Positions 1 to 4,784 of a stretch of DNA of 64,000 nucleotides are shown piece after piece. The notes below the pieces were generated by a model. It had not been told where the DNA came from. It made no database searches and was given only the letters and a program-made list of their open reading frames with translations. Numbering within the stretch: position 1 is the stretch's first letter; the number at the start of each line of letters is the position of its first letter. The stretch spans positions 2,232,001 to 2,296,000 of the forward strand of contig NC_014220.1 in assembly GCF_000092405.1 (NCBI RefSeq), read 5' to 3'. The translations under genes and the position numbers were made by a program. The DNA comes from Syntrophothermus lipocalidus DSM 12680. GTDB taxonomy: Bacteria; Bacillota; Syntrophomonadia; Syntrophomonadales; Syntrophothermaceae.

Positions 1-822
1 GAAAGTCACCAGCCACATAAAACCGAAGTAAAGAGTGAGAGGGATTACCACCCTCAAAACATCGAGCGGCAGGGTTACGATTACATTCCCTTTTAACGAA
101 AACATTACCAAGATGGTGAAAAGAAGCGCGATCAAGGTAAGCTTGCTGATGCGGGGGATGAACTGGCCTTCGTACCATTCCCGGCCTTTCGAGCGCACCA
201 TGGTCGTGCGGGTGAGAAAGCCTGCTATAAAAGGAATGCCCAGGTAAATGAAAACGCTCTTGGCGATCTCGGCCATCGAGACATCGACCGCCGCACTGGT
301 CAGTCCCAGCCATTTGGGTACTATGGTCAAAAAGATGTAGGCGTAGATAGAGTAGGTCAGAACCTGAAATATCGCGTTGAACGCCACCAAGCCAGCAGCA
401 TACTCGGGGCTGCCTTCTGCCAAGTCGTTCCAAACCAAAACCATGGCGATGCAACGGGCCAATCCCACCAGGATGACGCCCTGCATAAGCTCGGGCTTGT
501 CGGGCAAAAGCAGCACTGCCAGGACAAACATGACTATGGGACCTACGATCCAGTTCTGGATCAGGGAAAGAGACAGGAGCTTCCTATCCCTGAAAACGGT
601 GGGGAGTTCGTCATACCGGACCTTGGCCAGGGGCGGGTACATCATCAGTATCAGGCCGATAGCTATGGCTATGTTGGTGGTCCCGATCTGAAACTTGCCC
701 CAAAAGTTGGCTATCGAGGGGTAGAAGTAGCCAGCCCCTACCCCTATGACCATCGCCAGGAATATCCACAAGGTAAGGTAGCGGTCTAAAAAGGACAGTT
801 TAGCACCGACCGATTCACTCAT
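1..822 (-). CDS. acr3: ACR3-family arsenite efflux permease (3' end beyond window)
   Basis: The reading frame is open from an ATG at 822 to base 1 (274 codons), so the C-terminus is missing. GGAGGG lies just upstream of the ATG. The protein is very hydrophobic with about eight visible membrane segments. The stretch [17 protein letters not shown], with its membrane-buried Cys, is characteristic of ACR3 arsenite/H+ antiporters of the BASS superfamily; the family is usually 340-400 residues. It exports arsenite (and sometimes antimonite) across the cytoplasmic membrane. It is last of a minus-strand run after arsR, a SafE-like permease and a Cys-rich protein, which fits arsenic control. Confidence 0.9.
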
Positions 823-876
823 TCTCTCGCCCTCCACTCTTTTCTCTGTGAATCGCTTGTAAATTTATGGGTCTAC

Positions 877-1224
877 CTAGGCACTCAAAACCTCATCTAG
901 CATGGACTGTATCTGCTCCACATCGATGGCTCCCGCCAACCGCGGCTTGCCTCCTATGCTTATGATAGGAAAGGGGTAGCCGACCTCAGCCAAACGCTGA
1001 ATCATCGGGTATGCCTTGATCCCCTTTTCTCTCGTATCCACATACTTGACTTCAACCTTTTCTCCATAAGTCCGGCTCAAATCGCAAGCCAGCTTCTCAG
1101 TTGCTTCCTTCCAGGAGATGTCTGCCCCGCAGCCTTCATCACTCCCACAGGGAGCAGAGCACCCGCATCCTATGGCTACTGCCTTGCCATCAAACACCTC
1201 TACCAGTACCTTTTCGTCCGCCAT
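877..1224 (-). CDS. Cys-rich thioredoxin-fold-like small protein of the ars operon
   Basis: A 115-residue protein (114 after the initiator Met). The ATG at 1224 is preceded by AAAGGAGG, which is better than the upstream in-frame start at 1263. An N-terminal strand is followed by a Cys cluster (C20, C22, C26, C32; GCGCSAPCG then EGCG), another Cys at 47, and a C-terminal half (YPFPIISIGGKPRLAG) with a beta-strand and Gly-Gly turn like a thioredoxin or glutaredoxin fold with a cis-Pro-like position. No standard CxxC active site at the usual place. I do not recognise a named family; it is not an ArsD or an ArsC of the usual type. Lying 54 bp upstream of acr3, it may bind or hand over arsenite, which is inference. 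Confidence 0.75.
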   Translation of the reverse strand: MADEKVLVEVFDGKAVAIGCGCSAPCGSDEGCGADISWKEATEKLACDLSRTYGEKVEVKYVDTREKGIKAYPMIQRLAEVGYPFPIISIGGKPRLAGAIDVEQIQSMLDEVLSA

Positions 1225-1326
1225 TTTCTTCACCTCCTTTCCTTCTATAACTGCCGGTAACACCCAGAAAAGCCCGGGTCATGCTTCCCAAGCAAGAGTT
1301 TGGCTTCCAATCGGCACCGCGGTAAC

Positions 1327-2121
1327 CTAAATGGTTATGCCGAAGTATATCAGAATGTACTTCAGGGAAACGTACAGGAACAAGAGGCCAAACAAGGTCT
1401 TCAGAGCCGCAGGCTTGAACCGGGCCACCAGTTTTGCTCCATAGATGGCACCGATGACTGCTCCCAGACCGAGGGTAATGGCCACCGGGATATTTACCAC
1501 GTGCTGGTACAGCTTGAAAATAGCTCCCACCAAAGCCATCCACACAAAGGAAGCCATAGAAGTTCCGATAGCGAACCGCATGGGTGCCTTAAACAGGTAG
1601 AGAAAAGAAGGCACCAAAGCGTACCCGCCTCCGAGTCCAATTATACCGGTGAGAAAACCGATGGCTGAACCCAATATGCTCTTGCTCAAAGGAGTTCCCG
1701 GCAGCCCTTGACCGCTGGCTGGAGCAGGCTGAGGCTGTGCCGCCGCTATTAACCCGGTTATACCCTCGTACAGCATGCGCAGAGTAACCACAATAAAAGC
1801 GATGCCGATAATCAAGTCGATCAACGAACCGTAAGGCTTGATATATCCGAAGACGATGGACCCTATGATAACCCCCAGAATACCGCTGTAACCTGTAAGC
1901 ATAGCGGTTTCTTTGTCGACATTACCCATCTTGATGTGCTGGATAGCCCCCGAGCTCGCAGTAAAGACCACGGCGGTCAAAGTCGTACCTACTGCTAAGG
2001 CCGGGGCAAAATCAAACCCGAACCTGATAACCGGCATGATCAAGGCACAACCACCTGTTCCCAACAGCCCGCCAATCACTCCCGCCAGAATACCCACTAT
2101 AAAGAAAACAAGATAAGTCAC
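1327..2121 (-). CDS. TauE/SafE family (DUF81) membrane permease
   Basis: About 264 residues when started at the GTG at 2121, which is preceded by GGAGGAGG; an in-frame ATG at 2175 would add 18 unlikely residues. Eight or so membrane segments and the two internal repeats typical of TauE/SafE proteins are visible: GGLLGTGGCALIMPVI near the N-terminus and GIIGLGGGYALVPSFL in the second half. Family members export sulfite, sulfoacetate or other sulfur anions. Here it sits between arsR and the Cys-rich protein/acr3, so a role linked to thiol or thioarsenic chemistry is possible but unproved. About 275 bp without a recognisable gene separates it from arsR. Confidence 0.88.
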   Translation of the reverse strand: MTYLVFFIVGILAGVIGGLLGTGGCALIMPVIRFGFDFAPALAVGTTLTAVVFTASSGAIQHIKMGNVDKETAMLTGYSGILGVIIGSIVFGYIKPYGSLIDLIIGIAFIVVTLRMLYEGITGLIAAAQPQPAPASGQGLPGTPLSKSILGSAIGFLTGIIGLGGGYALVPSFLYLFKAPMRFAIGTSMASFVWMALVGAIFKLYQHVVNIPVAITLGLGAVIGAIYGAKLVARFKPAALKTLFGLLFLYVSLKYILIYFGITI

Positions 2122-2396
2122 TAATCTGCCTCCTCCAATAGACTGTTCCACCGTCATTGACCGTTCGTCAACCAACCATTTACTTCAACATCATCTTTGG
2201 CTTCGGTCTCATGTCCAACCCCTTCCAAGCTTCATGGCACCCTGCCCGTTCTAAAACCCTCTGAGCAAAAAGTCGACAATAGGGGGAAAACTAGAAACAG
2301 CCTCGCGCAGCAGCGCAAATTTTGTGCCCATGCACTCTCAACCGTTTTTAAAAAGCATTACTGGGCTTTTCGGCGGCCGTTACTGGTACTTTTCGC

Positions 2397-2777
2397 TCAA
2401 GAAATTGGAACCGGCTTTTCTCCCGCCTTACACTGTCTCACCCTAACGTCTTCGTCCAAGACGGCCAGGCGTTCTTTTTCCGGCGCCAACTCTTGTATGT
2501 CCTCCAGGTTCCTCTTCATGTAATCGGCAAACAGCTCTATAACCCCAGAACCTATAACCGGGTCCAGGCTGTAAAAACACCTCTGCCGTTCTTTCCTTTC
2601 TCTGATCAGACCGGCTTTCTTCAAGACCTTCAGGTGCTGTGACACCCGCGGCTGGCTCATGTCTAAAACAGCCACCAGCTCGCACACGCACAGCTCTTGC
2701 AAGGAAAGTAGTTTGACAATCTTTAGCCTGGTCGGTTCACCTAGTGCTTTAAAGAAAATCTCAAGTTCGTTTATCAT
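2397..2777 (-). CDS. arsR: ArsR/SmtB-family metalloregulator
   Basis: A 126-residue winged-helix repressor. The alpha3 metal box ELCVCEL places C30 and C32 in the arrangement used by ArsR to bind As(III)/Sb(III). The recognition region MSQPRVSQHLKVLKKAGL is a standard ArsR helix-turn-helix. A further Cys lies near the C-terminus (VRQC) and could be a third ligand. Its promoter carries an inverted repeat at 2794-2813, placed so that bound repressor would block transcription. Expected role: dissociate from DNA on binding arsenite and so induce the downstream SafE-like, Cys-rich and acr3 genes. Confidence 0.95.
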   Translation of the reverse strand: MINELEIFFKALGEPTRLKIVKLLSLQELCVCELVAVLDMSQPRVSQHLKVLKKAGLIRERKERQRCFYSLDPVIGSGVIELFADYMKRNLEDIQELAPEKERLAVLDEDVRVRQCKAGEKPVPIS

Positions 2778-2897: not shown

Positions 2898-2926
2898 TTG
2901 ACAGCTTCAACGTATATCTCTACAAT
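2898..2926 (+). promoter_or_regulatory. sigma-A promoter of the padR unit
   Basis: TTGACA (2898-2903), a 17-base spacer and TACAAT (2921-2926) on the plus strand, 49 bases before the PadR start codon. It is back to back with the arsR promoter, about 40 bp apart. Near-repeats of the form TATnTATgGG / TATGTATATCC lie just downstream (2927-2960) and could bind a regulator, but I see no clear palindrome. Confidence 0.75.
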
Positions 2927-2974
2927 GTATCTATGGGCTATGTATATCCTCAATAGGTATAGGGGGTGGCGGTT

Positions 2975-3331
2975 ATGATTAGGTACGACTCGAGGGAATA
3001 TTGGGTCAGCCTTATAAGGATGAGTCTTTCCCGTTTTTTTATACTTCATGCCCTCCATCTGAGACCACTGCACGGGTACGAGATTAGCCGACAGGTGGCG
3101 TCTTTTACCAACGGTTGCTGCGCGCCGACCGAGGGCAGCCTGTATCCCTTACTGAGAGACATGGAAGAGTCGGGGATTCTGTCGGTGGCAGTGCAGGTGG
3201 TGTCGGGGCGCGAGCGCAAGGTGTACACCCTGACCGAAAAAGGCGAACAGGCATATCAAGTTGCTGCTCAGGCCTGGGGCGAAGCCGCCAGGTACGTGCT
3301 GGAAGCGGTAGCAGAGGAATCTCATGTCTGA
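2975..3331 (+). CDS. PadR-family regulator with vicinal cysteines
   Basis: About 118 residues from the ATG at 2975, which has AGGGGG eight bases upstream (a GTG at 2966 is also in frame). The fold signature of PadR winged helices is clear: FILHALHLRPLHGYEI, then EGSLYPLLRDMEESGIL and GRERKVYTLTEKGE. Unusually, a Cys-Cys pair (FTNGCCAPTEG, C48-C49) sits in the segment leading into the recognition helix, where most PadR proteins have no cysteine. It is the first gene of a three-gene plus-strand unit ending in an ArsP-type permease. A role as thiol-based sensor of a metal(loid) is inferred. Confidence 0.85.
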   Translation: MIRYDSREYWVSLIRMSLSRFFILHALHLRPLHGYEISRQVASFTNGCCAPTEGSLYPLLRDMEESGILSVAVQVVSGRERKVYTLTEKGEQAYQVAAQAWGEAARYVLEAVAEESHV

Positions 3332-3398
3332 GCGGTCATCCCGCCTCGTACGCACTTCTGGTTTCAACGATTATGCTTGGAAAGGAGGTGAGGCAACA

Positions 3399-3587
3399 GT
3401 GGCCAACACCAAAGGTGAGAAAGATGAGAAGAAAGGCAGTATTCTATCCCGAATCTTCGGAAAGAGCAGCGGCGGTTGTTGTGGAGTCCAGATTATTCCT
3501 GTAGACGAAGCAGCTGATGCTGTCAAGGAAGCCAATGTAGACGCCTCCGCCGGGGATAGCGCGCAGCAGGAAACAAAGAAAAACTAG
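3399..3587 (+). CDS. Small Gly-Gly-Cys-Cys protein
   Basis: 62 residues from a GTG at 3399, chosen because a perfect AAAGGAGGTG precedes it; an ATG at 3324 gives a longer frame overlapping padR. The protein is hydrophilic with a Lys/Glu-rich N-terminus, a central SSGGCCGVQIIPVDEA motif (C27-C28 the only cysteines) and an Ala/Glu/Gln-rich tail. No signal peptide or membrane segment. I do not recognise a named family. Between a Cys-containing PadR regulator and an ArsP-type permease, the vicinal thiol pair suggests a metal(loid) carrier or accessory of the permease, by inference only. Confidence 0.75.
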   Translation: MANTKGEKDEKKGSILSRIFGKSSGGCCGVQIIPVDEAADAVKEANVDASAGDSAQQETKKN

Positions 3588-3703
3588 CAAGGGTAATTCC
3601 GCAATACCTGGGTATAACCACCATGAAACCGCGGCTCGGGTCGTCTATAAAGATCCTGCCGCAGGGTATTAATGGCATATAAACGCCACTGAGGAGGATA
3701 GTA

Positions 3704-4636
3704 ATGGACGGTCTGAACAGCCTGCGAGAAGCTGCTTATTGGTTTGTGTATATCTCACTAGAGCTAACCATCCTTTTTGTCGGGATTACCTTCATCATCG
3801 GGTTGATAACGACCTACGTTTCACCTAAGAAAGTGGAGGGCATCCTCTCCCGATATGGTCGAGGAATTGCTGGAAACATTTTGGGCGCGGTTTTCGGAGG
3901 CCTTCTTCCGTTCTGCTCCTGCTCCACTATTCCAGCATTGGTAGGATTGCTAAATGTCGGTGTTCCGTTTCGCATTGCCATGTCCTTCCTGATCGCTTCA
4001 CCGCTGGGGGTTTTCAACATAGCCGTGATTTCGCTTTTCGCCGTGATCTTTGGATTCAGAGTGGCTGTGCTCTATGTTGTCGCCACTTTCGTAGCCGCGG
4101 TTCTCGCGGGCATCATCCTCGGCGGCTTGAACCTCGAGCGCGAGGTTAGAGCGGTGAGGATCGTTGGAGCTCAAGAAGAGGTAGCTATCACAACGGTTGA
4201 GGATGCCTCTGGGTGGGAAGCCCTGAAACCAAGACTGGCTGTTGCCTGGGGATTCGCCCAAAACCTTTACCGACAGATGATCCCTTATCTTTTGGTCGGG
4301 GTAGGTATCGGCGCTTTCATTTACGGATTCGTTCCGGAAGGCTTTTTCATCAAGTACGCGGGAGCAGGTAATCCTTTCGCTGTGCCGCTGGCAGCCGCGA
4401 TAGGTGTTCCCATGTACGTCAGAACCGAGACTATGATTCCTATTGCCTCTGCATTTGTAAAGAAAGGCGTTTCGGTCGGCACTGTCATGGCCTTGCTGAT
4501 CGGAGGAGCCGGAGCCAGCATACCCGAACTCACCCTCTTGTCATCGATATTTAAGCGGAAACTGATGATAGCATACATCGTTACCATCTTTGGTATCGCT
4601 ACAGTTGTCGGCTACTTATTCAATTTTATTGCCTGA
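3704..4636 (+). CDS. ArsP-type permease (DUF318/COG0701)
   Basis: 310 residues from an ATG preceded by GAGGAGGA. Eight predicted membrane segments in two halves split by a hydrophilic loop (about residues 145-175). The family motif LLPFCSCSTIPALVGLL carries C71 and C73, and the second half has the matching GVPMYVRTETMIPIA. Family members include ArsP, which exports trivalent organoarsenicals, and permeases of unknown substrate. Context (PadR regulator, CC protein, ars operon next door) supports metal(loid) export. Last gene of the plus-strand unit; a strong palindrome follows at 4683. Confidence 0.88.
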   Translation: MDGLNSLREAAYWFVYISLELTILFVGITFIIGLITTYVSPKKVEGILSRYGRGIAGNILGAVFGGLLPFCSCSTIPALVGLLNVGVPFRIAMSFLIASPLGVFNIAVISLFAVIFGFRVAVLYVVATFVAAVLAGIILGGLNLEREVRAVRIVGAQEEVAITTVEDASGWEALKPRLAVAWGFAQNLYRQMIPYLLVGVGIGAFIYGFVPEGFFIKYAGAGNPFAVPLAAAIGVPMYVRTETMIPIASAFVKKGVSVGTVMALLIGGAGASIPELTLLSSIFKRKLMIAYIVTIFGIATVVGYLFNFIA

Positions 4637-4682
4637 TTGAAAGAATCTATTAAGACTACATCTATCCTGTTCTACCAAAACA

Positions 4683-4710
4683 ATAGCAGGTCGCGCGACC
4701 TGCTATAATT
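4683..4710 (+). terminator. Terminator after the ArsP-type permease
   Basis: A perfect 24-base palindrome (4683-4706, centre GGTCGCGCGACC) is followed by AATTTT. It lies between the convergent permease and YaaH-type transporter genes. The T-run is on the plus strand, so it mainly serves the permease. Confidence 0.8.
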
Positions 4711-4784
4711 TTGCTCTTTTTCACAACTATCTTTCTTTAAATGAGTGCAAAATATCTTATCCTAATGTTAAACCGACGCTACCC

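Follow-up and report, generated by a model that had tools for sequence, protein, structure and literature searches.

To our knowledge, the repressors known to control arsP genes are ArsR-family proteins. In Shewanella putrefaciens 200 the repressor SpArsR is encoded next to an ArsP gene (arsR4-arsP), has two cysteines, is selective for methylarsenite (MAs(III)) and controls arsP (PMC11868830, PMC9213503, PMC12124457). Binding of MAs(III) takes two thiols while As(III) sites normally have three, and SpArsR, which is without a third cysteine, responds to MAs(III) and not to As(III) (PMC11868830). Induction of arsP is controlled by an arsR4 of this two-cysteine kind (PMC9213503). For the ArsP permease of Campylobacter jejuni, MAs(III) and trivalent roxarsone are export substrates and arsenite is not (reviewed in PMC6205960), and all surveyed ArsPs have a C(S/T)C motif (PMC4435449).

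Here we describe a three-gene unit in the complete genome (2,405,559 bases) of Syntrophothermus lipocalidus DSM 12680, in which an ArsP_1 family permease follows a PadR-type regulator and a small protein, each with a vicinal Cys-Cys (CC) pair. The window is the whole stretch of 64,000 nucleotides that was analysed. The unit occurs in bacteria and some archaea, and it is not a product of chance: the grouping of its genes, their cysteines and the palindrome at the promoter are found again in unrelated genomes. It is real and conserved, and apparently undescribed in its present form. Its probable role is to detect soft poisons, trivalent methylated arsenic for example, and to pump them out.

Organization of the gene unit

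The following features were placed in the window.

2400..2777, minus strand: ArsR with a CVC motif, heading the ACR3 operon; divergent, sharing its intergenic region with the PadR unit
2898..2926, plus strand: sigma-A promoter (-35 box TTGACA, 2898-2903; -10 box TACAAT, 2921-2926; 17-bp spacer; 11 of 12 matches)
2924..2946, no strand assigned: predicted operator of the PadR protein, AATGTATCTATGGGCTATGTATA, a 23-bp palindrome over the end of the -10 box and the expected transcription start
2909..2931 and 2939..2961, no strand assigned: two weaker, overlapping predicted operator copies, 15 bp either side of the main site (11.4 and 9.8 bits)
2975..3331, plus strand: PadR-type repressor (118 aa; vicinal C48-C49, codons 3116-3121)
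3399..3587, plus strand: small CC protein (62 aa; GTG start; CC27-28, codons 3477-3482)
3704..4636, plus strand: ArsP_1 family permease (310 aa; C71-S-C73, codons 3914-3922, in PFCSCSTIP)
4683..4706, plus strand: terminator-like 12-bp perfect inverted repeat ATAGCAGGTCGCGCGACCTGCTAT, closing the unit

The initial annotation had proposed three genes with a shared sigma-A promoter and a terminal palindrome, a 62-residue protein with one CC pair and a permease with CSC, and every one of these elements was found in place. The three plus-strand genes follow a single promoter, whose TTGACA box occurs again upstream of many homologous PadR genes, and the small CC gene has its own ribosome site (AAGGAGGT, 3382-3389). 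RNA from 4660-4720 folds at -18.9 kcal/mol (z = -5.5), and none of 200 shuffles was equally stable. The hairpin resembles an intrinsic terminator and may stop transcription from both directions, since its U-run is short and the hairpin symmetrical. An attenuator between the small CC gene and the permease gene (3588-3703) was considered and rejected, as this region folds like its shuffles (z = -0.3). Based on a whole-genome family search, the window PadR and the window ArsP_1 permease are the sole members of their families in this genome.

The regulator is a PadR protein with a conserved cysteine pair

The regulator matches Pfam PF03551 with 72.6 bits (cut-off 27), and the PadR fold is supported by AlphaFold2 and Foldseek. 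C48 and C49 are the only cysteines in the protein. In the AlphaFold2 model (mean pLDDT 93) they lie in the turn between helix 34-44 and the recognition helix 53-65, which bears out the earlier placing of the pair beside the recognition helix. The nearest solved folds are Rv3488 and LmrR, the latter a multidrug sensor of the PadR family; the Rv3488 equivalog model NF053635 is matched with 44.9 bits, well below its cut-off of 140. When the three best-scoring solved PadR relatives were aligned, none had a CC pair at this position.

Matches to the DNA pattern for GCCxPTEG are present in 14 of 398 genomes of the phylum, eight of which are also genomes with a small CC protein (<1 expected, p = 2e-7). 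A scan of named genomes for PadR proteins with this pair (PadR-CC) retrieved 27 loci, including Pelotomaculum, Moorella, Desulfotomaculum relatives, Dethiobacter, Chloroflexi and an archaeon. An ArsP_1 open reading frame is present at 25 of the 27, directly downstream at about 23 of them. A small CC protein accompanies 16, as counted here and in the other neighbourhood counts with a profile seeded from several of the loci that it then scored, and a recognizable one is missing from the remaining 11.

Both the named-genome and the pattern scans demanded GCC, and the invariance of the CC pair in the resulting set (A3) is therefore partly circular. For this reason the search was repeated by plain similarity. 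The E-values of the PadR relatives leave a clear gap between two groups, one at E <= 1e-22 and the other starting at 5e-14. Of the 19 upper-group relatives whose sequence spans the site, 18 have the CC pair, so that its conservation, on which the initial annotation had made its proposal depend, is confirmed. The sole close relative without it (L201, GSCSPAEG, with SC in place of CC) has no pump, small protein or operator. ArsP adjoins 13 of the 18 PadR-CC relatives, and 16 of the 18 have ArsP or a small CC protein beside them; three of these have the small CC protein only, ArsP having been lost. Neither the 10 PadRs of the lower group nor 30 control PadRs have a CC pair or an adjoining ArsP. 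Overall, ArsP adjoins 13 of 18 CC PadRs versus 0 of 41 non-CC PadRs (Fisher p = 2e-9), and within the similarity search alone 13 of 18 versus 0 of 11 (Fisher p = 1e-4). A few PadR-CC loci are without ArsP, a point against the export scheme proposed below.

At five Moorella-type and related loci (L050, L055, L059, L077, L101) ArsP has seemingly been lost while PadR-CC and a small CC module remain, and at L059 and L077 the initial ArsP residues read directly into the CC module.

A shared palindrome overlies the promoter

A palindrome search on 32 PadR-CC promoters gave an operator model with the consensus tATgCATtGancntCaATGcATa and a log-likelihood of 273, compared with 27-39 in shuffled sets. 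The palindrome sits at a near-constant distance from the PadR-CC gene. When the window was scanned with this model, 2924-2946 was the best site (21.2 bits) and the next unrelated site scored 10.2 bits. The two weaker overlapping copies are the second and fourth best sites of the scan, and tandem PadR binding is possible on this pattern. In the whole genome a loose form of the operator pattern finds three sites, 2924-2946 among them. Held-out promoters (L187, L188 and an alphaproteobacterial plasmid) scored 18-25 bits, with none of 300 shuffles as good. The consensus is absent at the divergent PadR-CC loci L056, L110 and L203 and at the CC-less L201. By its position and rarity, the predicted operator has the anatomy of a local autorepressor site.

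The small CC protein belongs to an unnamed family

The window small CC protein consists of a KKG-SILSRIFG helix, a single CC pair (CC27-28), a GVQIIP segment and a disordered tail. Against Pfam and NCBIfam it matched no family at E <= 1 apart from a galactokinase model, and neither it nor its homologues matched ArsD or another named metallochaperone in these databases. The galactokinase match, and a match of one homologue to the YM-216391 RiPP family, are at chance level. A single-sequence search found nothing convincing beyond the window genome because the protein is too short; a match at L002 was rejected, as neither permease nor regulator adjoins it. Relatives were instead reached through permease loci, and a profile built from them (A1) matched in 25 of 398 genomes of the phylum, with an ArsP_1 open reading frame at 20 of the 25 loci.

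Across the 25 aligned proteins the CC pair is the sole invariant, within a layout of a KKG-[LIF]-[LF] helix, CC and then hydrophobic-x-[IV]. The number of CC copies per protein ranges from one to three or more, with two or three repeats in Pelotomaculum, Dehalococcoidia and Cupriavidus plasmid versions. The module is also fused to DUF2703 and to an MTH895/ArsE-type thioredoxin domain. Versions of 44-73 aa occur on Staphylococcus ars plasmids and in Priestia, Halobacterium and the archaeon Methanosuratincola, and in 26 Staphylococcus-type plasmid records the protein is either annotated 'hypothetical protein' or left unannotated. The gene order of the window, PadR, small CC protein and ArsP, is found again at L056, L107 and L110. 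The small CC protein represents a family without a name, found mostly within a single ArsP_1 subclade. PadR-CC units can evidently do without it, since 11 of the 27 loci have no recognizable copy. Some PadR-CC loci without it carry another unnamed cysteine-containing protein (MGKKCCDPDAPKIYKLNVGG... at L088).

Instead of carrying its ligand, the protein may serve as a thiol buffer, a co-regulator or a pump adaptor at the membrane surface. The AlphaFold2 model of the 62-aa protein (pLDDT 58) has one helix, 15-21, and the rest is predicted to be disordered. Little structure beyond a short helix and the CC pair, a CC number that varies as expected of a buffer, and absence from some units all suit a role other than carrier. 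The constant helix-then-CC layout, the confinement to one subclade and the thioredoxin-like fusions suggest a directed role instead, and we consider the non-carrier alternative a serious one that falls somewhat short of probable.

Two further proteins were observed at related loci. An unnamed protein of about 80 aa that begins with MSSCCDPxAPKIYQLNVGG, and has no Pfam or NCBIfam match, lies beside PadR-CC/ArsP at several of them (L084:2337-2582, L078:3-329, L088:6337-7298). At L066:1199-1435 an FmdB-type zinc-ribbon protein has a C-terminal GKGFLGRLLGGSRGSGCCG that resembles the small CC module fused to another domain.

The small CC protein tracks one subclade of ArsP_1 permeases

The window permease matches Pfam ArsP_1 (PF03773) with 191 bits (cut-off 32.3), with PFCSCSTIP at residues 69-77. 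No relatives were found in a viral scan with this permease, and no solved structure of an ArsP_1 relative was found. Its closest curated models are the SO_0444 Cu/Zn efflux family (NF033936, 107.7 bits) and SaoE (NF040736, 104.4 bits). Together with the breadth of the ArsP_1 superfamily, whose characterized members are not all arsenic pumps (SO_0444, Cu/Zn; SaoE, organometallic), these matches raise the question of whether the unit acts on a different soft metal or organometal (Hg, methyl-Hg, Cu, Zn or Cd) after the manner of SO_0444 or the SAO system. The closest solved PadR fold, Rv3488, points the same way, as it is a PadR reported to have a cadmium-bound crystal structure. However, both permease scores are far under their cut-offs (300 and 325, respectively), and the recognized neighbours at the homologous loci are arsenic genes, with no mer, czc or cop among the annotated ones; we therefore regard a metal other than arsenic as quite unlikely.

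Among 30 same-order permease loci, a small CC protein lies beside the 10 most similar permeases (the window and nine at 42-47% identity) and beside none of the 20 others, nor does it lie beside any of the 30 best-scoring ArsP_1 proteins of the phylum. The nine similar loci have the order MarR-type regulator, permease, small protein, often followed by ArsR and ACR3. Their MarR-type regulator has two CC pairs (GECC and GRVCC), and their small protein reads NEKKGLFxRL..KKSSCCxFxIEEIP. In a maximum-likelihood tree of 89 ArsP_1 proteins, made by a quick method with long rows flagged and without the characterized C. jejuni ArsP, a single branch of 40 members (SH-aLRT 95) holds 32 of the 35 proteins that have a small CC protein beside them. 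Within this branch, PadR-CC, MarR-CC and ArsR regulators are interleaved, from which we conclude that the pump and the small CC protein form the stable core and that the regulator is swapped.

These patterns modify two earlier proposals. The small gene had been expected wherever the same permease occurs, and it does follow one subclade, but it is missing beside some members of that subclade as well as from the PadR-CC loci noted above. The three-part unit, described as self-contained, is recurrent without being fixed, its regulator having been exchanged around the core.

Vicinal-Cys MarR regulators of two kinds head pump/small-CC units, one with GECC and GRVCC (L016:1024-1473 and homologues) and the other with GAQCCGVSL and a terminal SSCC (L184:2425-2877).

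The unit lies in an arsenic island

The divergent operon next to the unit encodes a TauE-like and a thioredoxin-like protein in addition to ArsR and ACR3. ArsM, which is intact and scores 302 bits against a cut-off of 263, is located 9 kb upstream, outside the PadR unit. A TAG flagged inside ArsM proved to be its stop codon. Homologous units elsewhere adjoin ACR3, ArsM and ArsC, and those of Staphylococcus adjoin arsDA. The PadR unit had been called separate from ArsR/ACR3. It has its own promoter and predicted operator, in keeping with that description, but the two are divergent neighbours in one arsenic island with ArsM.

On a Roseomonas plasmid (L215:3953-7123), PadR-CC is followed by an FAD oxidoreductase and an MFS protein under the same operator as in the PadR-CC units. 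The best model for the MFS protein is ArsK, with a score below cut-off. Judged by these matches, the PadR-CC switch is joined there to a different type of pump, ArsK-like instead of ArsP.

Since ArsK is named an arsenite pump, this plasmid bears on whether the same scheme of sensing, binding and export serves inorganic As(III) or Sb(III), in which case ACR3 would be joined by a second unit for arsenite. The divergent ArsR/ACR3 operon, the arsDA genes next to the Staphylococcus units and the use of a CC pair, in which the small protein is like ArsD, are all consistent with such a role. It is unlikely, given that inorganic arsenite is not moved by characterized ArsP (PMC6205960) and that the window PadR and small protein have two cysteines each where As(III) sites normally have three (PMC11868830).

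The same surroundings could be read in terms of sulfur. A thiol-redox or persulfide switch, with the CC pair going to a disulfide or trisulfide and a sulfur compound as the cargo of the permease, would be in line with the TauE-like exporter of sulfur type, the DUF2703 and thioredoxin-like partners and the lipoyl proteins of the divergent operon. The TauE and lipoyl genes belong, however, to the ArsR operon and not to the PadR unit, and the CSC motif of ArsP_1 and the swap to ArsR-type regulators favour metalloids, which leaves this alternative very improbable.

Several other observations concern the ArsR/ACR3 side of the island. A palindrome seen by eye just upstream of ArsR in the shared intergenic region (TATAAG-CAATGC-CTTATA, 2795-2812) is a likely ArsR operator. 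The gene at 880-1263 (minus strand) encodes a Cys-rich thioredoxin-like protein (GCGCSAPCGSDEGCG) without a confident family, and it recurs near CC-ArsP loci. The operon appears to extend over window positions 1-2777 (minus strand) and 14 kb upstream (L178:8570-16777), with genes for GcvH, two DGC-domain proteins (PF08859), OsmC, dihydrolipoyl dehydrogenase, a radical-SAM (LipA-like) protein and a lipoate ligase. A set of lipoyl proteins thus appears to be joined to arsenite efflux in this operon.

A proposed sense, bind and export scheme

What we observe is the gene unit and its conservation, where the CC pair lies in the modelled fold, a shared palindrome overlying the promoter, and a specific link of the small CC protein to one ArsP subclade. 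From these we infer a ligand, its release of the repressor and a hand-over from carrier to pump. The reading that we favour, with modest confidence, is that the unit regulates itself and exports a soft poison that binds thiols, by means of an autorepressor, a carrier or buffer and a pump. By analogy with the known chemistry, the ligand is most likely a trivalent organoarsenical such as MAs(III).

In this scheme PadR-CC would sit on the palindrome over its own -10 box and repress all three genes. A trivalent arsenical caught by C48-C49, the pair that borders the DNA-reading helix on its N-terminal side, would release the repressor. The small CC protein, with its short helix and at least one CC pair, would bind the arsenical by two thiolates and either buffer it or hand it over to the permease, and the ArsP_1 permease with its CSC motif would export it.

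More broadly, and with greater reserve, we suggest that repressors sensing organoarsenicals could have arisen a second time, independently, as PadR-CC, whose thiol site would lie in the HTH turn. The small CC protein could be the founder of a widespread mini-metallochaperone family that serves an ArsP subclade under PadR-CC, MarR-CC or ArsR in several bacterial phyla and archaea. This wider proposal is plausible, if a little less than probable.

Comparison with described systems

Both the PadR switch and the small CC helper protein appear to be undescribed. The initial annotation knew of no described PadR arsenic sensor of this type, and a search of a library of 5.39 million papers likewise found none. 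The small CC protein tracks one pump subclade across phyla despite its 'hypothetical' annotation. With a predicted operator in common and a natural exception that has SC in place of CC, the idea lends itself to direct testing.

ArsD and the halo-CC-star proteins HcsS and HcsL are, like the small CC protein, small vicinal-Cys proteins from ars loci. HcsS and HcsL differ in having CC at the end and in being without the KKG helix-CC core. A carrier role for the small CC protein, if true, would give organoarsenical export a chaperone step, as ArsD does in the arsenite pathway. SaoE of the Sec-assisted organometallic (SAO) system belongs to the same permease superfamily as the window permease, and that system also has Cys-Cys (seleno)proteins such as SaoC (PMC13188914); the three unit genes are free of in-frame UGA codons, and none of the genes recognized in the unit is a Sao partner.

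With the MAs(III)/roxarsone(III) permease of C. jejuni, the window permease has PF03773 and the C(S/T)C motif in common. Its motif is preceded by PF, as in cluster 2 of Yang et al. 2015 (PMC4435449), and, in contrast to C. jejuni ArsP, the window subclade is accompanied by a CC protein.

The nearest parallel is with SpArsR, of which PadR-CC would, by analogy, be the PadR counterpart. Each is a two-cysteine repressor adjoining an ArsP gene, and the window PadR has, in a trait like that of SpArsR, only two cysteines (C48 and C49) in its putative sensor site. SpArsR is of the ArsR family, whereas by both Pfam and NCBIfam the window regulator is PadR and not ArsR. Further differences from SpArsR are the place of the CC pair, in the HTH turn, a conserved palindrome as its own predicted operator, and a small CC protein as an additional component. 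If true, a PadR switch with two thiols next to the recognition helix would show that evolution has met the same chemistry in a separate way, and would provide a new part for biosensors.
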